Below are positions 31,820-54,214 of a stretch of DNA of 64,000 bases, one piece after another. The notes below the pieces were generated by a model. The model made no database searches. It saw nothing but the letters and a program-made list of their open reading frames with translations, and was not told the origin of the DNA. Both the position numbers and the translations under genes were made by a program. Position 1 is the first letter of the stretch. Every line of letters starts with the position of its first letter. The stretch comes from Petropleomorpha daqingensis (GTDB lineage: Bacteria > Actinomycetota > Actinomycetes > Mycobacteriales > Geodermatophilaceae), in the NCBI RefSeq assembly GCF_013408985.1, contig NZ_JACBZT010000001.1, positions 1,736,001 to 1,800,000 of the forward strand. The letters are read 5' to 3'.

Positions 31820-31888
31820 CCGGTGGACGGCGCCGGGGTCTGGCGCTTGTATGAGGAGATTCCGACGCCGCTGTCGAGGGGGATCTCC

Positions 31889-33550
31889 ATGACCACGTAC
31901 GACGACCGACCCTGGCTGGCCCTCTACACCTCCGACCAGACCCCTGACGTCGCCGTGGAGTTCGACGACGCCCTCGCGATGGTCCGCGCCACGTTCGCCG
32001 CCCGGCCGGACGACGCGGCGATCAAGTACTTCGACGGCGTCCTCACGTGGCGCCAGCTCGACGAGCAGTCCACCGCGCTGGCCGCGGGGCTGCGGGAGCA
32101 CGGGTTCGAGCGCGGTGACCGCTTGGCGGTCTACCTGCAGAACGTCCCGCAGTTCGTGATCGCCATGGTCGCCACCTGGAAGGCCGGCGGGATCATGGTC
32201 TCGATCAACCCGATGAACCGGGAGCGGGAACTCGCCTACCAGCTCGAGGACTCCGGCGCGAAGGTGCTGCTCTGCCTCGAGTCGCTGTACGACTCGGTCG
32301 CGCGCAAGGTCGTCCCCGACACCGACGTCACCCTGGTGCTGACCACCTCGGAGCTCGAGTACCAGAACCGGCACGACTCGCGGCTGTTCGGGTCGGTCTC
32401 CCGGCAGCGCTCCGACGGCACCACGGACCTGGTCGAGCTGATCGAGGCACACCTCGGCGAGTCGGTGCCCGACGTCTCCTACGGGGTGGACGACGTCGCG
32501 TTCCTGACCTACACGTCCGGGACGACGGGCGTGCCCAAGGGCGCGATGAACACCCACGGCAACGTCTGCTTCACCGCGCAGGTCTACCGGGACTACGCCG
32601 GCGTCGGCAGGGACGGCTCGGTGCTCGGCGTCGCACCGCTGTTCCACATCACCGGCCTGATCGGGCACATCGGCGTCTGCCTGCTGTCGGGCTCCTCGCT
32701 CGTGCTGGCCTACCGCTTCGAGCCGCAGGTCGTGCTCGACGCGATCCGCGAGCACCGGCCGACGTTCACCATCGGCGCGATCACCGTGTTCATCGCGCTG
32801 ATGAACGCTCCGGGCTTCGCCCGGGAGGACTTCGAGTCGTTCGAGTGGATCTACTCGGGCGGCGCGGCGATCGCGCCGTCCGTCGCCGAGGCGTTCGAGA
32901 AGGCGACCGGCCTGCCCATCCACAACGCCTACGGCCTTACCGAGACGACCTCGCCGATGACGCTCACCCCCCGCGGCGTCGCCTCGCCGGTCGACCAGAC
33001 CTCGGGCGCCTTCTCCGTCGGCTGCCCGGTCAACAACACCGTCGTCCGGATCCTCGGCGAGGACGGCGAGCCGGTGCCGCTGGGCGAGGTCGGCGAGATC
33101 TGCGCGAAGGGGCCGCAGGTCGTGCTCGGCTACTGGGGCAAGGAGAAGGAGACCGAGGAGGCGCTGCCGGGTCGCGAGCTGCGCTCCGGCGACGTCGGGT
33201 TCATGAGCCCCGAGGGCTGGATCTTCATCGTCGACCGCAAGAAGGACATGATCAACGCGGCCGGCTACAAGGTGTGGCCCCGGGAGGTGGAGGACGTCCT
33301 CTACGGGCACCCGGCGGTGCGCGAGGCCGCGGTCGTGGGCGTTCCCGACGAGTACCGCGGGGAGACGGTGAAGGCGTTCGTGTCGCTCAAGCCGGGAAGC
33401 CAGGCCACGCCCGAGGAGCTCATCGCGTTCTGCAAGGAGCGGATGGCGGCCTACAAGTACCCGCGCTCGATCGAGCTGGTCGGCGAGCTGCCGAAGACGG
33501 TGACGGGCAAGATCCTGCGGAGGGAGCTGCGCGAGCCCGCCGGCAGCTGA
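31889..33550 (+). CDS. Long-chain fatty-acid-CoA ligase (class I adenylate-forming)
   Basis: A 553-residue acyl-adenylating enzyme. Core motifs: A3 YTSGTTGVPKGAM (ATP phosphate loop), A5 NAYGLTETTSPM, A7/A8 around SGDVGFMSPEGWIFIVDRKK and DMINAAGYKVWPREVEDVL, and A10 PKTVTGKILRREL with the catalytic Lys. The ATG at 31889 follows GAGGGGG. Chain-length preference cannot be read from sequence. An 82-bp palindromic element begins 24 nt after its stop. Confidence 0.92.
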   Translation: MTTYDDRPWLALYTSDQTPDVAVEFDDALAMVRATFAARPDDAAIKYFDGVLTWRQLDEQSTALAAGLREHGFERGDRLAVYLQNVPQFVIAMVATWKAGGIMVSINPMNRERELAYQLEDSGAKVLLCLESLYDSVARKVVPDTDVTLVLTTSELEYQNRHDSRLFGSVSRQRSDGTTDLVELIEAHLGESVPDVSYGVDDVAFLTYTSGTTGVPKGAMNTHGNVCFTAQVYRDYAGVGRDGSVLGVAPLFHITGLIGHIGVCLLSGSSLVLAYRFEPQVVLDAIREHRPTFTIGAITVFIALMNAPGFAREDFESFEWIYSGGAAIAPSVAEAFEKATGLPIHNAYGLTETTSPMTLTPRGVASPVDQTSGAFSVGCPVNNTVVRILGEDGEPVPLGEVGEICAKGPQVVLGYWGKEKETEEALPGRELRSGDVGFMSPEGWIFIVDRKKDMINAAGYKVWPREVEDVLYGHPAVREAAVVGVPDEYRGETVKAFVSLKPGSQATPEELIAFCKERMAAYKYPRSIELVGELPKTVTGKILRRELREPAGS

Positions 33551-33551
33551 G

Positions 33552-33565
33552 GTTCCACGTGGAAC
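33552..33565. promoter_or_regulatory. parS-like palindrome (candidate ParB site)
   Basis: GTTCCACGTGGAAC is a perfect 14-nt palindrome. It differs from the ParB-binding core GTTTCACGTGAAAC at two symmetric positions. It sits just after the acyl-CoA ligase stop in a window that also contains gyrA, so within the origin-proximal zone where parS sites cluster. Only one copy was found here. Confidence 0.5.
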
Positions 33566-33574
33566 GGCAGCCGG

Positions 33575-33656
33575 TGATCAGGTTCCCTGATCACCGGCTG
33601 TCCTACCTCACCAGCATTGGTGCGGGAGGACAGCGTTTGATCAGGTGACCTGATCC
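33575..33656 (+). repeat. 82-bp composite palindromic element, copy A
   Basis: Three stem-loops in a row: TGATCAGG-ttc-CCTGATCA, a central CTGTCC...CACCA-gcat-TGGTG...GGACAG hairpin, and TGATCAGGTGACCTGATC. Spacers are ccgg and cgtt. The reverse complement of 40185-40266 matches at 72 of 82 positions with the same spacers. The left hairpin extends outward to 15-nt arms (33568-33582 and 33586-33600). It lies between the acyl-CoA ligase and RNB genes. Confidence 0.85.
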
Positions 33657-33684
33657 ACGCCAGGACGACAGGAGGACGACACCG

Positions 33685-35109
33685 ATGGAGCGTCCTCCGC
33701 GGCATCCGTTGCGCGTGCCGAGCTGGCCGCGGCCGGCGCCGTCCCCACCGGACTTCGCGGCGATCCGGGCCGAGCTCGGCGTGCCGGAGGACTTCCCCGC
33801 GGATGCGCTGGCGGAGGCGGAGGCAGCCGCGGCGCGCCCGCCGCTGCCCGAGCTGGACGCCACCGACGTCGAGCTGGTCACCCTCGATCCGCCGGGCAGC
33901 CGCGACCTCGACCAGGCGGTGCACCTCGCCGAGCGCAACGGCGGCTTCCGGGTCACCTACGCGATCGCCGACGTCGGCGGCTTCGTGCGGCTCGGCGGGG
34001 CGCTGGACGCCGAGGCCCGCCGCCGCGGCCAGACCGTCTACAGCCCCGACCGGCGCGTGCCGCTGCACCCGACCGTGCTCAGCGAGGGCGCGGCCAGCCT
34101 GCTGCCCGGCCAGGTCACGCCCGCCGTCGTCTGGACCCTCGACCTGGACGGCGACGGCGAGCTGACCACCTCCGACGTCCGCCGGGCGCGGGTGCGCAGC
34201 CGCGCGCAGCTGGACTACCCGGGCGTGCAGGCGCAGGCCGACGCCGGCACGCTGCCCGGCGCCCTGGCCCTGCTGCCGCGGATCGGCCGGCTGCTGCTGG
34301 AACGGGCCGCCGACCGCGGCGCCATCGAGCTGGGCACCCCCGAGCAGGAGGTGCAGCCCACGCCGGACGGCGGCTGGACCCTTGTCTTCCGCGGCGACCT
34401 GCCCGTCGAGACGTGGAACGCGCAGATCTCGCTGCTCACCGGCCGGTGCGCGGCCGGGCTGATGCTCGACGGCGGGGTCGGCATCCTGCGCACGCTCCCG
34501 CCGGCCCGCCCCCAGGACGTCGAACGGCTGCGGCTGCTGGCGCCGGCGCTCGGCGTCGACTGGCCGGCCGGTGCGAGCCCCGGCTCGGTGATCAGCGGCC
34601 TGGACGCCGGCGACCCCCGGCACGCGGCGTTCCTCGAGGAGGCGGCGACGCTGCTGCGCGGCTCGGGCTACACCGCCTTCGACGGTGCGCCCCCCGCGCA
34701 GCCGCTGCACAGCGGGGTCGCCGCCCCGTACGCGCACGTCACCGCGCCGCTGCGCCGGCTGGTCGACCGGTTCGGCACCGAGGTCTGCCTGGCGCTGGCC
34801 ACCGGCCGCGGTCCGGGCGACGAGCTGCGCGCGGCCCTGCCCCTGCTCCCCGAGCTCATGGCGACCTCCGACCGTCGCACGCACGAGGTGGAGCGCGCGG
34901 TCGTCGACGCCACGGAGGCGTGGCTCCTGCACGGCCGCGAGGGCGACCGCTTCCCGGCGGTCGCGCTCGACGAGGGCACCGTGGTCCTGGACGAGCTGGC
35001 CGTGCGCGCCCGCTGCGCCGGCCCCCTGACGCCGGGCACCCGGGTGGAGGTCCGGCTGGTCGAGGCCGACGTGGCGAGCCGTAGCGTGCGCTTCGAGGTG
35101 GTGACATGA
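33685..35109 (+). CDS. RNB-domain ribonuclease (RNase II/R family)
   Basis: A 474-residue 3'-5' exoribonuclease-type protein. The catalytic RNB domain has LDPPGSRDLDQAVHLAER (Asp metal ligands in a D-PPGSRDLDQ motif), AIADVGGFV, RRVPLHPTVLSEGAASLLPG, the RARVRSRAQLDYPGVQAQAD segment and APYAHVTAPLRRLVDRFGTE. There is no N-terminal cold-shock domain, and the S1-like end is short, as in the compact actinobacterial form. The stop overlaps the aminotransferase start (ATGA), an unexpected metabolic partner. Confidence 0.9.
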   Translation: MERPPRHPLRVPSWPRPAPSPPDFAAIRAELGVPEDFPADALAEAEAAAARPPLPELDATDVELVTLDPPGSRDLDQAVHLAERNGGFRVTYAIADVGGFVRLGGALDAEARRRGQTVYSPDRRVPLHPTVLSEGAASLLPGQVTPAVVWTLDLDGDGELTTSDVRRARVRSRAQLDYPGVQAQADAGTLPGALALLPRIGRLLLERAADRGAIELGTPEQEVQPTPDGGWTLVFRGDLPVETWNAQISLLTGRCAAGLMLDGGVGILRTLPPARPQDVERLRLLAPALGVDWPAGASPGSVISGLDAGDPRHAAFLEEAATLLRGSGYTAFDGAPPAQPLHSGVAAPYAHVTAPLRRLVDRFGTEVCLALATGRGPGDELRAALPLLPELMATSDRRTHEVERAVVDATEAWLLHGREGDRFPAVALDEGTVVLDELAVRARCAGPLTPGTRVEVRLVEADVASRSVRFEVVT

Positions 35110-36293
35110 CCCGCGTGCCCTACCTGTCGGCCCGGCTGCAGGGCTTCGGGACGACGATCTTCGCCGAGATGAGCGCCCTGGCCGTGGCCACCGGCGCGGT
35201 CAACCTCGGCCAGGGCTTCCCCGACTACCCCGGCCCCGACGAGGTGCTCGACGTCGCCCGCGCCGCGATCGGCACCGGGCACGACCAGTACCCGCCCGGC
35301 CCGGGCATCCCCGAGCTGCGGCTGGCGATCGCCGACCACGTGCAGCACTTCCGCGGCCTCGGCTACGACCCCGACACCGAGGTGCTGGTCACCGCCGGGG
35401 CCACCGAGGCGCTGGCCGCCGCGCTGATCGCGCTGCTCGAGCCCGGCGACGAGGTCGTGCTCTTCGAGCCGATGTACGACAGCTACGCCGCGGGCGTGGC
35501 CATGGCCGGCGGCGTGCTGCGGCCGGTGCCGCTGCGCCCACCGGCCGGGGACGACGGACCGTGGAGCTTCGACCCCGACGAGGTGCGGGCCGCCGTCACG
35601 CCGCGGACGAAGCTGCTGCTGCTCAACACCCCGCACAACCCCACCGGCAAGGTGTTCACCGCCGAGGAGCTGGGCCAGCTGGCCGCCCTGGCCATGGAGC
35701 ACGAGCTGCTGGTGCTCACCGACGAGGTCTACGAGCACCTGGTCTTCTCCGGGGCCGAGCACCGCTCGATCGCCACCCTGCCGGGCATGCGCGAGCGCAC
35801 GATCGTCGTCAGCAGCGCCGGCAAGACGTTCAACACCACCGGCTGGAAGATCGGCTGGATCTGCGCGCCGGCCGAGCTGGTGACCGCCGTCCGCACGGCC
35901 AAGCAGTTCCTCACCTACGTCAGCGGTGGGCCGTTCCAGCCCGCGATCGCCGCCGGGCTGCGGCTGCCCGACGAGTACTTCACCGGGATCGCCCGCGACC
36001 TCGAGTACCGGCGCGACGTCCTGGTCCAGGGCCTGCGCGAGGCGGGGCTGCCGGTGATCAGCCCGGAGGCCACGTACTTCGCGACGGTCGACGTCCGCCC
36101 CGTGCAGCCGGACGGCGACGGGCTGGCGTTCTGCCGCTCGCTGCCGGAGCGGGCCGGTGTCGTCGGCGTCCCGACTGTGGTGTTCTACGACCCGGCGCAC
36201 GCGCACCTGGGCCGGCACCTGGTCCGGTTCGCGTTCTGCAAGCGCGACGAGGTGCTCGGCGTTGCGGTGAAGCGGTTGAGGGAGATGGCATGA
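35106..36293 (+). CDS. PLP-dependent class I/II aminotransferase (glutamine transaminase/DapC-like)
   Basis: A 395-residue fold-type I enzyme. NLGQGFPDYPGPDEVLDVAR and HDQYPPGPGIPELRLAIADH open the protein; LLLNTPHNPTGKVFTAEEL and TDEVYEHLVF hold the PLP-ring Asn and Asp; and SSAGKTFNTTGWKIGWICAP carries the Schiff-base Lys. It belongs to the kynurenine/glutamine transaminase K and methionine transaminase (YbdL) group. It overlaps by 4 nt with the downstream carbon-nitrogen hydrolase, a common pairing in which the hydrolase removes the alpha-ketoglutaramate made by transamination. Confidence 0.92.
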   Translation: MTRVPYLSARLQGFGTTIFAEMSALAVATGAVNLGQGFPDYPGPDEVLDVARAAIGTGHDQYPPGPGIPELRLAIADHVQHFRGLGYDPDTEVLVTAGATEALAAALIALLEPGDEVVLFEPMYDSYAAGVAMAGGVLRPVPLRPPAGDDGPWSFDPDEVRAAVTPRTKLLLLNTPHNPTGKVFTAEELGQLAALAMEHELLVLTDEVYEHLVFSGAEHRSIATLPGMRERTIVVSSAGKTFNTTGWKIGWICAPAELVTAVRTAKQFLTYVSGGPFQPAIAAGLRLPDEYFTGIARDLEYRRDVLVQGLREAGLPVISPEATYFATVDVRPVQPDGDGLAFCRSLPERAGVVGVPTVVFYDPAHAHLGRHLVRFAFCKRDEVLGVAVKRLREMA

Positions 36294-37051
36294 GGATCGC
36301 GGCGGTGCAGCACGACATCGTGTGGGAGGACCGCGACGCCAACTTCGCGCGGCTCGCCCCGTGGATCGCCGGCGCGGCGGGCGCCGGTGCCGAGCTTGTG
36401 CTGCTCACCGAGACGTTCTCGACGGGCTTCTCGATGACGCCGGGCATCGGCGAGCCCGAGGGCGGCCCGTCCGCGCAGTTCCTGCAGGCGCAGGCCGCCG
36501 AGCACGGCGTCTGGGTGGGCGGCACCTGTCCCGAGATCGCCGCGGACGGCGAGCTGCCCTACAACTCCTTCGTCCTGGCCGGGCCGGACGGGACGACGCA
36601 CCGCTACCGCAAGCTGCACCCGTTCACCCACGCCGGCGAGCACGAGCGGTTCCGGGCGGGGGAGAAGCCGACCAGCGTGGAGATCGGGGGCCTGCGGATC
36701 ACGCCGTTCATCTGCTACGACCTGCGCTTCGCGAACGTGTTCTGGGACGCCGCGCCGGCCACCGACGTCTACCTGGTGCCGGCGAACTGGCCCAGCCCGC
36801 GCCGGCACCACTGGCAGACGCTGCTGCAGGCCCGCGCGATCGAGAACCAGGCGTACGTGGTCGGCGTGAACCGGGTCGGCGCCGACGGCAACGGTCTCGA
36901 GCACCTCGGCGACAGCCGGATCGTCAGCCCGATGGGCGAGCTGCTGGCCACGGCGGCCGGCGTCGAGACGATGCTGCTCGCGGACGTCGACGCGGCTGAG
37001 GTCGCCGCGACCCGCGAGAAGTTCGCCTTCATGCCCGACCGCAGGCCCTAG
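36290..37051 (+). CDS. Carbon-nitrogen hydrolase (omega-amidase-like)
   Basis: A 253-residue nitrilase-superfamily amidase. The catalytic Glu-Lys-Cys triad is in LLTETFSTGF, YRKLHPF and ICYDLRF. It resembles YafV/Nit2 omega-amidases that hydrolyse alpha-ketoglutaramate or alpha-ketosuccinamate. The ATG overlaps the aminotransferase stop (ATGA), so the two are translated together; together they would recycle glutamine-derived ketoacids or salvage methionine. Confidence 0.9.
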   Translation: MRIAAVQHDIVWEDRDANFARLAPWIAGAAGAGAELVLLTETFSTGFSMTPGIGEPEGGPSAQFLQAQAAEHGVWVGGTCPEIAADGELPYNSFVLAGPDGTTHRYRKLHPFTHAGEHERFRAGEKPTSVEIGGLRITPFICYDLRFANVFWDAAPATDVYLVPANWPSPRRHHWQTLLQARAIENQAYVVGVNRVGADGNGLEHLGDSRIVSPMGELLATAAGVETMLLADVDAAEVAATREKFAFMPDRRP

Positions 37052-37092
37052 CGGAGTGCCACGGCGCGGAAAGCGCGCCCGTGGCACTCCGC
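37051..37092. terminator. Bidirectional hairpin terminator
   Basis: GCGGAGTGCCAC (37051-37062) pairs perfectly with GTGGCACTCCGC (37081-37092). The inner GGCGCG/CGCGCC extends the stem with one bulged C around loop GAAAG. It fills the whole 41-nt gap between convergent hydrolase (+) and antiporter (-) stops. Confidence 0.88.
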
Positions 37093-38697
37093 TCAGTCGT
37101 CGTCGACGGGGCCGGAGAGGCGGACCTCCTCGGCGTCCAGCTGGTTCTGCATGCGCACCAGCACCAGGTCGTCGATGCGGCGGTCGTGGCGCAGTTGGGC
37201 GAGCGCCCGGCGCTTGTCCGCGAGCAGCGCCACCCGCAGCCGGCGTGCGGCCTTGAGCGCGGCCAGGGAATCGCGGTCGCGATCCTCGGCCTCGCCGTCC
37301 AGCACCGCGTACTTCAGCTCCAGCTCGCGCAGGTGCTCCTCGTAGTCGGCGTGCACCTGCTTCCAGACGTCGTCGGGCACGCCGAGCTCGGCGGCGCGGT
37401 CCTCCATCGCATCCATGGCCGCCCGGGTCGCCTCGCGCTGGGCCAGCCGCTGCTCCTCGGTCTCGCGGCTGTCCTCCGGCAGGTGCGCCCAGCGGACGAC
37501 GGCCGGCAGCGTGAGGCCCTGCACGACCAGCGTGAACACGATGACGCCGAAGGTCACCAGCAGCACGAGGTCGCGGCCCTCCAGCGGCCCGCCGCCGTCC
37601 ATGGTGGCGGGGATGGCGAGCGCCGCGGCCAGCGAGACCGCGCCGCGGAAGCCCGCCCACGCCAGCGGCTGGCGCTGGCGAAAGCCCACCCGGCGCAGGC
37701 GCTGCGCCGGTCGGCGGTCGATCGCCCGGATCAGGTACGGCGTCGAGTTCGACCACACCAGCCGGGTGCCGACGACGACGAGCGAGACCAGCAGCGCGAT
37801 CGCCGAGCCCGCCAGCAGCTCCGACGCGCTGCGGCCGGCCACCACGGCGTGCAGCTCCAGGCCGATGAGCACGAACAGCGCCCCGTTGAGCACGTAGCTG
37901 GTCAGGGTCCAGAAGGCGCGGGACTGGACGCGCGTGCGGGCCGGGATCAGCGTCGGCGGGATCTGGGTGAGCGCCAGCCCGGCCGTGACGACGGCGACCA
38001 CCCCGGAGGCGCCCAGCAGCTCGGCGGGGAGGTAGGCGACGAACGGGGTGAGCAGCCCGACCAGGTTCTCCAGCCGGACGTCGTGCAGCCGCCGGCGCAC
38101 GAGCACGGCCAGGCTGGCGACGGCCAGGCCCGCGGCGATGCCCCCGACGTAGGACCACGCCAGCCGCCACGCGATCCCGCCCGCGCCGATCTCCAGGGTG
38201 CCGACGGCGATCCCCACCGCGACGCCGTAGACGGCCAGCGCGGTGCCGTCGTTGATCAGGCTCTCCGCGCGCAGCAGCGTGGCCTGGCGCCGGGGCAGCC
38301 GGCCGGCGACGGCGGCGACCGCGGTCGCGTCGGTGGGCGCGAGGACGGCGCCCAGCACCCAGGCCATCGGCCAGGACAGGCCCAGCGCGTGCCCGACCAG
38401 CGCGACGGTCGTCGCCGTGACCAGCACGAGGACGACCGACGACAGGAAGATCACGCGGACGTTCGCCCGCGCTTCGCGCAGCGACGTGTTCAGCGACTCC
38501 CAGTACAGGAGGGCCGGCAGGAAGAGGAACAGCACCACCTCGGGCGGCATCTCGACGTCGCCGAGGCCCGGCACGAAGCCGACGGCGACGCCGAGCAGCA
38601 GCTGGACGAGGGGCGCCGGCAGCCTCAGCCACGGGGCCAGGACGCCGCCGAGCAGCACCAGCACCCCGATGACGACGACGATCTCCAGGCCTCGCAC
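37093..38697 (-). CDS. Na+/H+ antiporter, CPA1 (NhaP/NhaG) family
   Basis: A 534-residue protein with about 12 membrane helices (residues 1-400) and a cytosolic C-terminal helical tail (about 420-534) rich in charged residues. Diagnostic segments are LFLFLPALLYWESLNTSLRE, VLGAVLAPTDATAVAAVAGR (the TD ion-binding helix) and LLRAESLINDGTALAVYGVA (ESLINDGTA motif), then WAGFRGAVSLAAALAIP. It exchanges cytoplasmic Na+ for H+ and supports pH and salt homeostasis. Start is GTG 38697. Confidence 0.93.
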   Translation of the reverse strand: MRGLEIVVVIGVLVLLGGVLAPWLRLPAPLVQLLLGVAVGFVPGLGDVEMPPEVVLFLFLPALLYWESLNTSLREARANVRVIFLSSVVLVLVTATTVALVGHALGLSWPMAWVLGAVLAPTDATAVAAVAGRLPRRQATLLRAESLINDGTALAVYGVAVGIAVGTLEIGAGGIAWRLAWSYVGGIAAGLAVASLAVLVRRRLHDVRLENLVGLLTPFVAYLPAELLGASGVVAVVTAGLALTQIPPTLIPARTRVQSRAFWTLTSYVLNGALFVLIGLELHAVVAGRSASELLAGSAIALLVSLVVVGTRLVWSNSTPYLIRAIDRRPAQRLRRVGFRQRQPLAWAGFRGAVSLAAALAIPATMDGGGPLEGRDLVLLVTFGVIVFTLVVQGLTLPAVVRWAHLPEDSRETEEQRLAQREATRAAMDAMEDRAAELGVPDDVWKQVHADYEEHLRELELKYAVLDGEAEDRDRDSLAALKAARRLRVALLADKRRALAQLRHDRRIDDLVLVRMQNQLDAEEVRLSGPVDDD

Positions 38698-38752
38698 AGA
38701 ACAATCCTGCCGCGCGGGGGGCCCGGAGCGGAGCCCCCTCCGGAACCTCGGC

Positions 38753-39118
38753 TCAGTAGGAGAACGTCACCGCGGGGTCGTCGCCGATCCACTGCCACAT
38801 GGGCACGGTGCCGCCGAGCTCGGCGCCCTCGATGAGCATGCCCTTGTCGAGCTTCCTCGAGTCGAAGCAGATCGGGCAGACCAGGAACGTCCCGCCGGCC
38901 TTGCCGTACCGCTCGAGCAGGGAGGGCAGCGGCGGGCAGCCCTCGCACGCCGTGCCGGTCGCGACCCCTTCCGTGGCCAGCCGGACGGCCTCCTTGGTCA
39001 GGAACATCAGCGTCTGCCGTCCCTGCTCGGCGGCCCCGACCGCGACGAGGAACGCGATCATGACCTTCTCCGGGTCCTCCATGCCCGTGGTCAGGCTGAT
39101 GACCGACTTGTTCGCCAT
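38753..39118 (-). CDS. DsrE family protein
   Basis: A 121-residue DsrE/DsrF-like protein. It opens MANKSVISLTTGMEDPEKVM, has LVAVGAAEQGRQTLMFLTKE, a Cys-x2-Cys (ACEGCPPL) and FLVCPICFDSRKLDKGMLIE with a second Cys pair. DsrE-fold proteins carry persulfide sulfur or act in redox signalling. The ATG follows GGAGGTGGAG. It is divergent from a tetR gene and flanked by its operator. Confidence 0.88.
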   Translation of the reverse strand: MANKSVISLTTGMEDPEKVMIAFLVAVGAAEQGRQTLMFLTKEAVRLATEGVATGTACEGCPPLPSLLERYGKAGGTFLVCPICFDSRKLDKGMLIEGAELGGTVPMWQWIGDDPAVTFSY

Positions 39119-39135
39119 GGCTCCACCTCCGGCTA

Positions 39136-39189
39136 GTTAGCACGACCGTTCGTGCTATGGCAGAGGAAAGTACGAACGGTCGTGCTAAC
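39136..39189. promoter_or_regulatory. Double TetR operator between dsrE-like and tetR genes
   Basis: A perfect 18-nt inverted repeat, GTTAGCACGACCGTTCGT (39136-39153) and ACGAACGGTCGTGCTAAC (39172-39189). Each half is itself a palindromic operator: AGCACGA-ccgt-TCGTGCT at 39139-39156, and AGTACGA-acgg-TCGTGCT with one mismatch on the other side. Two TetR dimers could bind and repress both divergent genes. Confidence 0.8.
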
Positions 39190-39197
39190 TTGTCAAG

Positions 39198-39845
39198 GTG
39201 AGTGCCGCTCCCTCGGAGGACGTCCTCCTCGAGCCGCTGCCGCGGGCGCGCAAGACGCGCTCCGACGGCCAGCGCACGCGCGCGGCGATCCTGCGCGAGG
39301 CCGTCTCCCTCGCTACCGTCGACGGGCTGGAGGGGCTGTCCATCGGCAACCTCGCCGACGCCCTGAAGATGAGCAAGAGCGGCCTCTACGCCCACTTCGG
39401 CTCGAAGCAGGAACTGCAGCTGGCCACCGTCGACGAGGCGGGGCGCATCTTCCAGCTGGAGGTCATCGGCCCCGCCCTGGCCGCGCCCACGCCTGTGGCC
39501 CGGCTGGTCGCCGTCTGCGACGCCTTCTTCGACCACTTGGAGCGCCGCACGTTCCCCGGCGGCTGCTTCTTCGCGGGGGCGGCGCTGGAGATGGGCACCC
39601 GCCCCGGCCCGGTGAAGGACCGGGTGGCCGCCTTCCAGTCGCGGTTCCACCAGCTGCTGCAGCAGGTCGCGGCCGCGGCGGTGCAGCAGGGCGACCTGCC
39701 CGACGACGAGGACCCGGTGGCCCTCGCCTTCGAGCTGAACGGGATCATCCTGGCCGCCGACACCAACTTCGTGCTGCACGACGACCCGGGGGCCCTCGAG
39801 ATCGCCCGGAAGGTGGTCCGCCGGAGGCTCGGCGTCAGCGCGTAG
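39198..39845 (+). CDS. TetR family transcriptional regulator
   Basis: A 215-residue repressor with its helix-turn-helix at about 25-75 (AILREAVSLATVDGLEGLSI, then LKMSKSGLYAHFGSKQELQL) and a TetR_C-type ligand domain with RRTFPGGCFFAGAALEMGTR, resembling the YcdC/LfrR-like group. GTG start at 39198. Divergent from the DsrE gene with paired operators between, so autoregulation is expected. Ligand unknown. Its 3' end overlaps a small convergent gene by 11 bp. Confidence 0.92.
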   Translation: MSAAPSEDVLLEPLPRARKTRSDGQRTRAAILREAVSLATVDGLEGLSIGNLADALKMSKSGLYAHFGSKQELQLATVDEAGRIFQLEVIGPALAAPTPVARLVAVCDAFFDHLERRTFPGGCFFAGAALEMGTRPGPVKDRVAAFQSRFHQLLQQVAAAAVQQGDLPDDEDPVALAFELNGIILAADTNFVLHDDPGALEIARKVVRRRLGVSA

Positions 39846-40074
39846 CCGCCTCCTGGTGGGTCGCGCCGTTGGACCGCTGCCGGGCGCTGGCCATCTCCGG
39901 CATGGGACCGCCGGCGGCGAGCCGGTAGGCCTCGGCCAGCTCCAGGAGGAGATGGGCCTTCTCCGGCGCCCGCAGGGCCGACTTCATGTTCGTCTCGGCC
40001 TGGTCCTTGATCGCCGTGAACAGGGCTTCCTGCGCTTCTCGCTTCGCCTCGTGTGCCAACGGACGCTCCCTCAT
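39835..40074 (-). CDS. Small conserved hypothetical protein
   Basis: A protein of 79 residues from ATG 40074, or 74 from TTG 40059, which has the better ribosome site GAGGGAG six bases upstream. The core is a helical HEAKREAQEALFTAIKDQAE and LRAPEKAHLLLELAEAYRLA, followed by a polar tail. No function recognised. It overlaps the convergent tetR end by 11 bp. Confidence 0.65.
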   Translation of the reverse strand: MRERPLAHEAKREAQEALFTAIKDQAETNMKSALRAPEKAHLLLELAEAYRLAAGGPMPEMASARQRSNGATHQEAATR

Positions 40075-40184
40075 CCTGGGTCGGCCCGGCGCCGATGTCC
40101 CCCCGAGGCTGACCGACCAGACCCTCGGGTTAGCCGAGGATCGCGAGCGCAAAACGCCGGTCCGTGCGGCAGGGTGCCGGACGG

Positions 40185-40266
40185 TGATCAGGTGACCTGA
40201 TCAAACGCTGTCCGACCGCACCAACGCTGGTGCAGGAGGACAGCCGGTGATCAGGTCACCTGATCA
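40185..40266 (-). repeat. 82-bp composite palindromic element, copy B
   Basis: Reads as the reverse complement of 33575-33656. The outer 19-nt palindromes TGATCAGGTGACCTGATCA (40185-40203) and TGATCAGGTCACCTGATCA (40248-40266) flank the central CTGTCC...GGACAG hairpin (40208-40243). It ends 12 nt from the stop of the minus-strand acyl-CoA dehydrogenase, so relative to that gene it has the same orientation as copy A has to the acyl-CoA ligase. Confidence 0.85.
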
Positions 40267-40278
40267 ACGCCTGCCCTG

Positions 40279-41496
40279 TCAGCGGGCGCGCAGCTCGCGC
40301 CGGGCGATGACCATCTCGTGCACCTCGTCCGGGCCGTCGGCGATCTGCAGCAGCCGCGCCTGCGCGTAGAGCGACGCCAGGGGGGTGTCCTGGCTGACCC
40401 CCATGCCGCCGTGCGCCTGGATCGCCCGGTCGACCACGTACTTGGTCACCTCGGGGGTGGCGACCTTGATCGCGGCGACCTCGGTGCGCGCGCCCTGGTT
40501 GCCGACGGTGTCGATCAGCCACGCCGTCTTGAGCACCAGCAGCCGGGCCTGCTCGATCCGGATGCGGGACTGGGCGATCCAGTGCTGGACGACGCCCTGC
40601 TCGGCGACCGGCTTGCCGAAGGCGACCCGCTGCTTGACCCGGTCGACCATGAGGTCCACCGCCCGCTCCGCCATGCCCAGCAGCCGCATGCAGTGGTGGA
40701 TCCGGCCGGGCCCCAGCCGCGCCTGGGCGAGCGCGAAGCCGGAGCCGGGCTCGCCGAGCAGGTTGGACGCCGGCACCCGGACGTCGTCGTAGTGGATCAC
40801 CGCGTGCCCGCCGTGCGCGGCGTCGGAGTAGCCGAACACGCTGGTCGAGCGCTCGATCGTGACGCCGGGGGTGTCCATCGGCACGAGGATCATCGACTGC
40901 CGGCGGTGCGGCTCGGCGTCCGGATCGGTGACGCCCATGACGATCGCGATCCGGCAGTTGGGGTTCATCGCACCCGAGGACCACCACTTGCGCCCCTGGA
41001 TGACGTACTCGTCGCCGTCCCGGCGGATCTCGGTGCGGATGTTCGTGGCGTCGGACGATGCGACCGCGGGCTCGGTCATCGAGAAGACCGACCGGATCTC
41101 CCCGGCGAGCAGCGGTTCGAGCCACTCCGCGCGCTGCTGCTCGGTGCCGAACAGCGACAGCAGCTCCATGTTGCCGGTGTCCGGCGCCGCGGAGTTCACC
41201 GCCTCGGGGGCCAGCGCGGGGCTGCGCCCGGTGAGCTCGGCCAGCGGGGCGTACTGCAGGTTGGTCAGCCCGGCGCCGTAGCCGTGCCGCTCGTGGTGCT
41301 CCTTGGGCAGGAAGAGGTTCCACAGCCCCCGCGAGCGCGCCTCGGCCTGGAGCTCCTCGATGATCGGCGGGCGCGCCCAGCCCGACTCCTGCACCTGCTC
41401 GTCGAACGCCGCTTCCGCGGGGTAGATCCGCTCGTCCAGAAAGGCCTGGAGCTGCTCGGCGAGCTCGGTGGTCCGGGGATCAGGGGCGAAGTCCAC
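40279..41496 (-). CDS. Acyl-CoA dehydrogenase (ACAD10/11-like)
   Basis: A 405-residue FAD enzyme of the long N-terminal helix subgroup. It contains SLFGTEQQRAEWLEPLLAGE, SMTEPAVASSDATNIRTEIR, GRKWWSSGAMNPNCRIAIVM and the C-terminal AIQAHGGMGVSQDTPLASLY with ADGPDEVHEMVIARREL. The ADGPDEVH segment is characteristic of ACAD10/11-type enzymes, which in bacteria and animals can act on 4-hydroxyacyl-CoA derivatives; the exact substrate here is not known. Start is GTG 41496. It is followed by the palindromic element. Confidence 0.9.
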   Translation of the reverse strand: MDFAPDPRTTELAEQLQAFLDERIYPAEAAFDEQVQESGWARPPIIEELQAEARSRGLWNLFLPKEHHERHGYGAGLTNLQYAPLAELTGRSPALAPEAVNSAAPDTGNMELLSLFGTEQQRAEWLEPLLAGEIRSVFSMTEPAVASSDATNIRTEIRRDGDEYVIQGRKWWSSGAMNPNCRIAIVMGVTDPDAEPHRRQSMILVPMDTPGVTIERSTSVFGYSDAAHGGHAVIHYDDVRVPASNLLGEPGSGFALAQARLGPGRIHHCMRLLGMAERAVDLMVDRVKQRVAFGKPVAEQGVVQHWIAQSRIRIEQARLLVLKTAWLIDTVGNQGARTEVAAIKVATPEVTKYVVDRAIQAHGGMGVSQDTPLASLYAQARLLQIADGPDEVHEMVIARRELRAR

Positions 41497-52529: not shown

Positions 52530-54214
52530 GGCGTGGCCGGTGCGGTGTCGGCCGGCGGCGTGTCAGCGGGCGGCGGTGGCGGCGGGTCGCTCGTCACCGG
52601 TGGCGGGTCGCTGGTCACGGGCGGCGGGTCGCTGGTCACGGGCGGCGGGTCGCTGGTCACCGGTGGCGGGTCGCTGGTCACCGGTGGCGGGTCGCTGGTC
52701 ACGGGGGCGGGATCGGTCACCGGGGCCGCCGCCGTCGTGCCCGGGTCGGTCGTCGCGACCGTGGTGTCGACCGGGGCGGCCGCGGCCGACGCGGCTGCCG
52801 GAGATGACGCCGCAGCGGCGGCCGCCCTCGAGGCGGTCGAGCCGCCGGTGCCGGCCTTGCTGCTGCTGCGGGGGCTCGCGGCCCGGGTCGAGTGCCCGGC
52901 GGAGCGGGACGTCCCGTGGGCGGCGGCGGTCGTGCCGGCCGGTCCGGTGGCCGCGGCCGGGGAGTCCGGGCCGGTCGTGCCGGCCGCCGGTGACGAGTCG
53001 GCCGCGCTGGCGGCGCCCCCGCCGTGGGAGGCCAGCACCCCGGAGTCGAGGGCCGCGAGCAGCGTGACCGGGGTGGCCAGGATGGCGACGAACAGGGCCG
53101 CGACCAGGGCGACCCGGCTGAGCGCCGCCGGCCCGGTCGGGCGCCGGCGGCGCCGTCCGGCCAGTTCGTCGTCCTCGTAGGGCTCGTCGTCCTCGGGGAC
53201 GTCGTCCTCGACGAATGCGTCGCCGGGTTCCTCGTCGGCGACGACCGCGAGCTCGACGGTCGGCACCGCGGGCGCCTCGATCAGGTCGAGCGCGAGCTCG
53301 GCGGCACCGCAGGCGGCGGCCTGCTCCGGTTCGTCGGTCATCAGGACGGGTAGGCCGAGGTCGGCCGACAGCGCCTCGGCCACGGCGGGCAGGCGCGCGC
53401 CACCGCCGGCGAGCACGATCCCGTCCAGCTCGGAAGGCTCCAGCCCGGCACCGGTCACGGCGGCGCGCAGGGCGCCGACCGACTCGGTGACCGCGTCGGC
53501 GAGCAGCTCGTCGAGGTCCTCGCGGACCAGGCGGATCGGCCGGGTCTGCCCGTCGATCTCGACGCGGACGTCGGTCTGTGTACTCAGCGCCTCCTTGGCG
53601 GCCACGCACGCGGTCCGGAGCGCCGTCGGGGTGGTGGGCAGGAAGCTGCGGACGTGCTCGACGACGGCGTCGTCGACGTCCCGGCCGCCCCAGGGCAGCG
53701 GCGCCGGCGGGGGCGCGACGTGCGCGAGGTCGCCGTCGGCGTCGGCCCGGACGACGGCGGTGTCGAGCGTGCTCGCGCCGAGGTCGTACACCGCGACCGT
53801 CGCGACGGCGGGCACGGTGCCGGTCGCGCGGCCGTGGCGGGTGACGGCGACCGCGCTGGAGACCAGCGTCGCGGTGCCGTGCAGCGCCTCGTCGAGAGCC
53901 TGCCGGCGGTGCTCGCTCCAGGACGGCGGCACGGTGACGACGGTGGCCGCCGCGGGCCCGCGCTGCTCGGCGACCCGCTCGACGACCTCGGCGATCACGG
54001 CCGCGACCGCGTCGGCGGCCGGGCGCGGCCGCCCGTCCACGTAGAGCGGGACCGGATCGCCGACCCGGTCGAGCAGGGCGCCGGTGCACCCGGTGTCCGG
54101 AAGAGGTGGCAGACGCAGCGGCTCGGCGCAGCGCTCGTCGCCCGGAGAGCACGCGGCGACCGTGATGGTCGCGTCCCCCAAGTCGATCCCGAGTCCGTAT
54201 CCGTCTGCGCTCAT
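52526..54214 (-). CDS. Membrane-tethered Hsp70/actin-like ATPase with Pro-rich repeat tail
   Basis: A 562-residue protein. Residues 1-310 are an Hsp70-type nucleotide-binding domain: phosphate-1 GLGIDLGDATITVAA, phosphate-2 VAVYDLGASTLDTAVV, adenosine loop GIVLAGGGARLPAVAEALSA. The usual substrate-binding domain is absent. An acidic linker (VEDDVPEDDEPYEDDELAGR) leads to a membrane helix (ALVAALFVAILATPVTLLAA, about 378-398), then a long Ala/Ser/Thr region and a C-terminal array of PPPVTSD heptads. The predicted topology places the ATPase inside and the Pro-rich tail outside. Hsp70-like proteins of this shape recur in actinobacteria; partner unknown. It is divergent from the iniBAC-like operon. 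Confidence 0.85.
   Translation of the reverse strand: MSADGYGLGIDLGDATITVAACSPGDERCAEPLRLPPLPDTGCTGALLDRVGDPVPLYVDGRPRPAADAVAAVIAEVVERVAEQRGPAAATVVTVPPSWSEHRRQALDEALHGTATLVSSAVAVTRHGRATGTVPAVATVAVYDLGASTLDTAVVRADADGDLAHVAPPPAPLPWGGRDVDDAVVEHVRSFLPTTPTALRTACVAAKEALSTQTDVRVEIDGQTRPIRLVREDLDELLADAVTESVGALRAAVTGAGLEPSELDGIVLAGGGARLPAVAEALSADLGLPVLMTDEPEQAAACGAAELALDLIEAPAVPTVELAVVADEEPGDAFVEDDVPEDDEPYEDDELAGRRRRRPTGPAALSRVALVAALFVAILATPVTLLAALDSGVLASHGGGAASAADSSPAAGTTGPDSPAAATGPAGTTAAAHGTSRSAGHSTRAASPRSSSKAGTGGSTASRAAAAAASSPAAASAAAAPVDTTVATTDPGTTAAAPVTDPAPVTSDPPPVTSDPPPVTSDPPPVTSDPPPVTSDPPPVTSDPPPPPPADTPPADTAPATP
52581..52706 (-). repeat. Six 21-bp tandem repeats in the Hsp70-like gene
   Basis: The unit GGCGGGTCGCTGGTCACSGGY begins at 52581, 52602, 52623, 52644, 52665 and 52686, exactly 21 bp apart and in frame, encoding the heptad TSDPPPV on the minus strand. 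A coding repeat of this size can change length by slippage without a frameshift. Confidence 0.9.

Follow-up and report, generated by a model that had tools for sequence, protein, structure and literature searches.

A dispersed three-hairpin element at gene 3′ ends in the Geodermatophilaceae and its possible role as a transcription-end structure

Introduction

Among described bacterial repeats, the closest in layout to the element analyzed here are the repetitive extragenic palindromic (REP) sequences, the bacterial interspersed mosaic elements (BIMEs) and the REP doublets forming hairpins (REPINs), the latter linked to the REP-associated tyrosine transposases (RAYTs). In the GI type of Pseudomonas fluorescens SBW25 the two palindromes of a REPIN stand 71 nucleotides (nt) apart, and the portion of PMC3116915 that deals with such doublets gives their distribution in extragenic space as random. 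Passages of PMC3733652 and PMC6006769 define a tag, GTAG (or GTGG/CGTC), that marks the foot of a REP hairpin, and one in PMC3733652 adds that GTAG repeats can supply a TAG stop codon. The present element was noticed in a 64,000-nt stretch of the Petropleomorpha daqingensis genome (positions 1,736,001 to 1,800,000 of contig NZ_JACBZT010000001.1, hereafter the window), where a first-pass annotation had recorded two related copies, A (33575-33656, plus strand) and B (40185-40266, minus strand), and had proposed either a mobile repeat akin to REP sequences or miniature inverted-repeat transposable elements (MITEs), or a shared 3′ regulatory structure. No title or abstract opening among the literature matches listed describes it.

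The element is built of a palindrome, P, a central hairpin, H, and a second P; its layout is REP/BIME- or REPIN-like, and its placement is like that of a bidirectional terminator. As in REPINs, inverted conserved palindromes lie at a fixed distance around a variable spacer with compensatory changes, in dispersed extragenic copies, but here the P units are themselves palindromes, the spacer is a hairpin of 16 base pairs (bp) and a 4-nt loop with constant geometry, and the copies are anchored behind stop codons. REP sequences and BIMEs in the broad sense share its short, dispersed, extragenic, many-copy and mosaic character (P-H-P, P-H-h, h-H-P and solo P), and the apparent ability, judged by eye from TGATCAGG, to supply the stop codon of a flanking gene recalls what that passage tells of the GTAG repeats; what sets the element apart is a copy number in the tens, the central H module and a single core in 8 of the 12 genera of the family. 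Like a bidirectional intrinsic terminator, the element places a GC-rich hairpin at gene 3′ ends in both directions, followed 3′ on either strand by T-rich sequence at convergent ends, and takes up orthologous positions that elsewhere hold other terminator-like hairpins, but the T-rich stretch is just 5 nt long, two sequence-conserved P units flank the hairpin, and the whole is a genome-wide repeat of fixed geometry. MITEs are likewise short, symmetric, multicopy and non-coding and leave empty sites, whereas in the present case there is no clear target duplication and no autonomous partner was seen, a genome-wide scan for one not being part of the analysis.

Results and Discussion

Architecture of the element

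The P palindrome has the core GATCAGGNNNCCTGATC, in which a nearly invariant 7-bp stem (GATCAGG/CCTGATC) encloses a 3-nt loop, and is extended by a variable basal stem of about 5 bp. Because the loop of H has 4 nt, searching for this hairpin with a loop of 3 nt returned no matches. The three-hairpin layout is 17-5-36-5-17 nt, the lengths, the spacing and the P core being fixed while the hairpin sequences may drift under compensation. The distance between the P cores is exactly 63 nt in 88 distinct elements, with single exceptions at 62 and 107 nt; the larger pair counts from which the distinct elements were drawn (105 and 183) may repeat a copy via overlapping loci. A length of 63 bp corresponds to about six turns of B-DNA. 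The best register of H is identical in 87 of the 88 elements, with 10 to 16 of the 16 pairs formed.

Several variants of this plan were found. When 29 sides lacking a P were inspected in the pooled genomes, 21 had an extra H arm at a distance of exactly 20 nt from that of H, and thus P-H-h and h-H-P make up a second architecture. In two Modestobacter genomes (G132 and G005; G and L numbers are our labels for genomes and loci) a second type of element occurs, whose H differs in sequence but keeps the 16+4+16 geometry and the 63-nt distance. A variant P core, GATCAGCTNNGCTGATC, is present in L146 and also in L328, where the spacing is 62 nt.

Copy number and spread

The first-pass annotation had asked whether further copies exist. 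A search combining BLAST with half-hairpin patterns located at least 30 H-bearing copies in the 5.38-Mb genome, which align free of gaps, along with three sites of solo or partial P, so that the count is 33 sites with these included and 30 copies with H. The figure of 30 is a floor, since BLAST scoring covered 40 of the 57 first candidates and two weak places (1413811 and 3738888) stand outside the count. According to our in-house scoring, 22 of the 30 copies have the full P-H-P order, one P is missing or broken in 7, and both are in 1; exact P cores number 53.

Within the family, the exact P core occurs in 82 of 112 genomes and in 8 of 12 genera, while a reversed control pattern occurs in none of the 112, and a covariance model built from 22 own copies found matches in 81 of the 112 genomes, again in 8 of 12 genera, with the best 39 candidates at most scored per genome. 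Of 394 genomes drawn from the class, 2 belong to the family, and among the other 392 only 5 hold the core, with 1 to 5 cores each. When named genomes were scanned for P followed by the start of H, a pattern that favours the H of copies A and B, 45 stretches emerged, 44 from Modestobacter and one from a Klenkia metagenome-assembled genome, both genera being Geodermatophilaceae. Exact P cores number from 0 to 60 per genome over the family. Copy number is patchy inside genera, and in genus g11 it ranges from 0 to 44 exact P cores. The copies from relatives used below are the best BLAST or covariance-model matches, a sample in which divergent copies are under-represented. Copy A had no match in the phage or plasmid collection, so carriage by either was rejected. 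In one class member of another family (G226, family f43; L263), five GATCAGG-NNN-CCTGATC palindromes with other loops were seen, possibly an unrelated repeat.

Placement at gene 3′ ends

A stop codon lies at most 21 nt away in 27 of the 30 own copies and in 67 of the 75 sampled in relatives, where genes are those of an in-house gene caller, without curated annotation, and distances run from a 90-nt element. The own exceptions are two copies between divergent genes and one at 342 nt; those of the relatives are five that overlap a called gene, one in a divergent gap and two at 37 and 66 nt. By gap type, the own copies divide into 18 tandem, 10 convergent and 2 divergent, and those of the relatives into 22 tandem, 47 convergent, 1 divergent and 5 gene-overlapping. 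With all gaps of at least 85 bp in the fetched loci as background, element gaps included and the five overlapping copies left out, convergent gaps are enriched (10/30 vs 13/133 in the own genome, 47/70 vs 54/223 in relatives) and divergent gaps avoided (2/30 vs 40/133 and 1/70 vs 69/223). In tandem gaps no more than 20 nt separate the element from the upstream stop codon in 17 of 18 own copies and 21 of 22 in relatives, against 6.8 and 8.9 expected under uniform placement, and this close adherence to the stop codon holds even in roomy gaps.

Orientation follows a different rule. Among the 17 copies between tandem genes other than A and B, nine point in the same direction, seven in the opposite one and one is a tie, and an orientation bias was therefore rejected; of the refuting outcome named at first pass, in which copies would ignore gene ends or orientation, only the part on orientation is borne out. 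Copies A and B had been reported in the same orientation relative to their genes, but the element is nearly dyad-symmetric (A matches its own reverse complement at 62 of 82 positions, B at 68 of 82), so that direction is hardly defined and the shared orientation says little. A link with fatty-acid metabolism, suggested by the genes beside A and B, was also dropped. Only 4 of 28 scanned neighbour genes look related to acyl-CoA or fatty acids and 2 match no family, and the neighbours include rtcB, bipA, ndk, greA and genes for phosphoenolpyruvate carboxykinase (PEPCK), cyclophilin and the E1 component of pyruvate dehydrogenase (PDH-E1). Judged by eye, the gene's own stop codon sometimes appears to be the TGA within TGATCAGG, for example at site 2 of G031. 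In the own genome, two elements 1.2 kb apart (3758668 and 3759873; L095) flank one gene of 338 codons, and in G028 (L158) a protein 56% identical to its product is likewise encoded beside an element.

Structure and covariation

Both window copies are predicted to fold stably as RNA (z of -6.0 for A and -8.2 for B). Across genera, in an alignment of 54 of the 55 P-H-P copies of relatives (L159 left out), 11 of the 16 pairs of H have changed on both sides, and the whole three-hairpin structure scores 0.213 against 0.093 when shuffled (0/500). The basal stems of the two P units, examined in 81 elements, are 58.8% and 52.3% paired within P against 46.7 and 44.1 in shuffles (0/300 each). The inner spacers do not covary as parts of a single 82-nt hairpin (46.4% paired in the 81 elements, 50.5 in shuffles), and for this reason that hairpin is not favoured as the structure under selection across genera.

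Next to H, the sequence is rich in T on both strands. The 5 nt 3′ of H in own P-H-P copies contain 45.9% T and 2.7% A, compared with 13% T in the window and 30.5% T in the outer arms of the same P units (p=0.001), and in relatives the corresponding values for T are 34.2 vs 24.4% (p=0.0004).

Turnover at orthologous sites

Orthologous gene ends in close relatives proved to be filled or empty, as an empty-site comparison proposed at first pass had been meant to reveal. In a block of six Modestobacter genomes, such ends carry an element of the copy A/B type, one of the second type, another hairpin or nothing, and some of the alternative hairpins at these convergent ends look T-rich at their ends by eye. 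At one site followed through 30 loci, the element is present in three genomes (G016, G031, G021), a P variant in one (G008), a diverged relative in one (G113), other hairpins in five (G134, G133, G126, G120, G135), short gaps in six (G024, G132, G005, G129, G112, G028) and a possible remnant in one (G121), while six have an insertion of 700-960 nt and in seven the flank was not found. In the flank tree, filled G016 stands beside empty G024 (support 0.875) and filled G031 beside empty G005 (0.999).

The elements of G016 and G031 are identical at site 1 (88/88), where the flanking coding DNA differs by 4-5%, and agree at 74 of 88 positions at site 2, so the two sites disagree. By the tree, site 2 is better explained by two gains or by three similar losses, and at site 1 G024 resembles a deletion scar by eye. 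An ortholog pair was closer than the best within-genome copy in both genomes in 1 of 16 cases, a weak test given that constrained positions saturate and few copies were sampled.

Around copy A, none of the matches listed in relatives spans both the ligase gene upstream and the RNase II gene downstream. The intervening gap in the window contains a parS-like palindromic 14-mer, GTTCCACGTGGAAC (33552-33565, no strand). In 14 of 19 loci of relatives a parS-like site precedes the matched RNase II point by 20-86 nt with no element visible between them, whereas the distance in the own locus is 148 nt with the element in between; the anchors have modest scores (32-43 of 60), two loci gave 159 and 163 on anchors that look misplaced, and three could not be placed. 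Behind the ligase gene, P-H-P was found in none of 10 relatives' loci and related hairpin elements in two (L226, L228). For copy B, an 85% identical ortholog (L234) is without the element, and among the more distant matches (73-76%, supposedly paralogs in part) L238, L245 and L248 have related or degenerate elements by eye.

A second family of hairpins was seen at the same convergent gene ends (L319, L323, L325, L334, as well as L364-L369 of G005 and L358-L363 of G132). The centres of these hairpins are alike (about GGGGCCCGCGCCGAGCGTGCGAGGCGTGGGGGGC in L319), the complementary arms vary in sequence and the end is rich in T; by eye, the family looks like a repeated ordinary bidirectional terminator.

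Interpretation of the element

The element is multicopy, anchored at gene 3′ ends, rigid in geometry, covarying across genera, and exchanged or present and absent at orthologous ends. The anchoring, the two-way symmetry, the T-rich pentamer and the swapping with other hairpins are consistent with a bidirectional terminator or 3′-end cassette; the conserved P core, rigid spacing and uneven copy number are consistent with a dispersing REP-like element that has a partner. We take the two to be true of one object, namely a dispersed, family-specific three-hairpin gene-end cassette, most likely a bidirectional transcription-stop or mRNA 3′-end structure that would spread and be exchanged in a REP-like manner, and judging from sequence we give this reading about an even chance. 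RNA polymerase arriving from either side would transcribe H, and the GC-rich hairpin followed immediately by the T-rich pentamer would stop or pause it. The P hairpins would then cap the 3′ end of the transcript, and the near-invariant P core may be read by a protein, which could be either the spreader of the element or a binder of transcript ends; termination and movement by the element are both putative. Of the two possibilities offered at first pass, the mobile repeat holds as to dispersal, patchiness and empty sites and gains no support as to transposition, for which neither a clear target duplication nor, in 23 family genomes, a Y1/RAYT transposase was found; the 3′ structure is upheld by the anchoring and the cross-genus covariation of the hairpins, its regulatory role being putative.

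Several observations weigh against this gene-end cassette. A standard terminator scan (criterion: 5 or more T among 8 nt beside a hairpin) of 33400-40500 found none, and the T-rich stretch, just 5 nt in length, is weak in three genomes (G002, G028, G033). Neither the P core nor the 63-nt spacing is accounted for by termination, and several close relatives hold nothing in place of the element, which is therefore dispensable. The single long hairpin has H and the P cores in common with the three-hairpin structure and scores nearly as well across genera (0.201 vs 0.106 shuffled), and its outermost 5 columns pair at 68.6 vs 61.9 (0/300), a result that falls to 47/300 with shuffling within H subfamilies; the best fold of copy B is one long hairpin, and copy A has three hairpins at minimum energy and the long hairpin as centroid. 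Covariation was seen in the own-genome copies neither for the three hairpins (82.6% paired vs 82.4 shuffled) nor for the long hairpin (83.8 vs 85.4), so the own copies could be decaying. Finally, a mobile repeat tolerated solely at gene ends would look nearly alike.

This last possibility is the strongest competitor, and we regard it as tenable, with roughly a third of our belief behind it. The element would be REPIN-like, non-autonomous and without host function, its inverted P pair being recognised as DNA hairpins by some transposase and its copies surviving solely at gene 3′ ends because they are harmful elsewhere. The inverted doublet with fixed spacing and compensatory changes is as described for REPINs in part of PMC3116915, and the patchiness in g11, the filled and empty sister genomes and the 14 of 19 relatives' loci in which no element separates the parS-like site from the RNase II gene all agree with mobility. 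The random placement given for REPIN doublets in that source does not, however, agree with copies that stay next to stop codons even where a tandem gap leaves ample room, and the identical element of G016 and G031 at one site, beside coding DNA that differs by 4-5%, also speaks against this reading. No RAYT (Y1_Tnp, PF01797) was found in any of the 23 family genomes searched (E<=0.001), the own and other copy-rich genomes included, in a search that did find matches in other families (2 of 14 genomes) and was positive in 5 of 14 control genomes, and a RAYT-driven REPIN was rejected accordingly. The GTAG/GTGG/CGTC tag is rare within 11 nt 5′ of the core (2 of 51 outer P feet in the own genome, 11 of 130 in relatives). 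Direct repeats around the 30 own copies resemble the shuffled means (observed/shuffled: 3-mers 30/26.8, 4-mers 17/14.8, 5-mers 3/6.1, 6-mers 1/2.0, 7-mers 1/0.7, 8-mers 0/0.2, 9-mers 0/0.1), and a target duplication of 3 or 4 nt is not excluded by these counts. The 28 genes beside own copies include no member of a transposase family (E<=1e-8), a genome-wide scan for P-flanked transposases not having been made. With its REP-like layout and terminator-like placement, the element departs from REPINs as to RAYT, tag and distribution and from a classical terminator as to the uridine tract (U-tract), and it shows no clear target duplication.

The near-invariance of the P core across genera while H changes, and the 63-nt spacing in 88 elements, would also suit a site in double-stranded DNA, at which a dimeric protein contacts both P units on the same face of the helix, about six turns apart, for instance in nucleoid organisation at gene ends; the copies were partly found via P, which favours conserved cores. 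We consider this unlikely, as a duplex site would need neither the covarying basal P stems nor the palindrome that H maintains in one register, and P is missing or broken in 8 of the 30 own copies. Chance, a compositional artefact or ordinary local duplication of one terminator has a negligible probability and was ruled out by the shuffles (0.00 expected), the reversed control and the dispersal of the 30 copies.

A more far-reaching version of the gene-end cassette is speculative and, in our estimate, somewhat improbable. It would represent a new repeat class in which a three-hairpin cassette is delivered to gene ends and swapped with terminators by a dedicated non-RAYT factor, terminators being the mobile unit. 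If so, transcription-end signals of a whole bacterial family would be supplied by an exchangeable repeat, and gene ends could be rewired with the genes untouched. The constancy of the 63-nt spacing and of the P core offers handles for tracing a partner protein, and filled and empty sister species such as G016 and G024 make both effect and mobility testable.

Copies A and B and their surroundings

As reported at first pass, A and the reverse complement of B are both 82 nt long, agree at 72 positions and have the same spacers, ccgg and cgtt; both are supported by BLAST, alignment and self-comparison. Copy A consists of a left P hairpin (33575-33593), in which motif match and RNA fold place a stem running through ccgg on both sides (CCGGTGATCAGG-TTC-CCTGATCACCGG), an H hairpin with mismatches in its 16-bp stem (33598-33633, from alignment and RNA fold) and a right P hairpin (33638-33656), all on the plus strand. 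On the minus strand, copy B has a gene-distal P hairpin (40185-40203), an H hairpin (40208-40243) and a P hairpin adjoining the acyl-CoA dehydrogenase stop (40248-40266), the P units again assigned by motif match and H by alignment and RNA fold. The flanking palindromes had all been described by one motif, TGATCAGG-CCTGATCA, which has three matches in the window against 0.00 expected from shuffles; the fourth P, at the right end of A, terminates in CCTGATCC and is one base off, its final base being C and not A. A search of positions 33000-41000 against Rfam gave nothing above threshold, the best score being 24.6 bits to a microRNA model with a 100-bit cut-off.

The distances to the neighbouring genes and the gene products, the latter backed by Pfam, likewise stand. 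Copy A starts 24 nt past the stop of an acyl-CoA ligase gene (AMP-binding, 6e-92; 31823-33550, plus strand; the start codon is uncertain and 31889 was used for Pfam) and is followed by a gene for an RNB/RNase II-type exoribonuclease (33685-35109, plus strand), and copy B starts 12 nt past the stop, at 40279, of an acyl-CoA dehydrogenase gene (40279-41496, minus strand). The 24-nt gap before A contains the parS-like 14-mer. Exact parS-like sites (GTTYCACGTGRAAC) number seven in the 5.38-Mb genome, all within 118 kb (1652150-1769565), and the origin region should therefore be there; two of the seven directly adjoin an element, namely copy A and the copy at 1652164. Elsewhere in the window, a repeat scan detected a tandem array with a 21-nt unit of about GGCGGCGGGTCGCTGGTCACG at 52557-52724.

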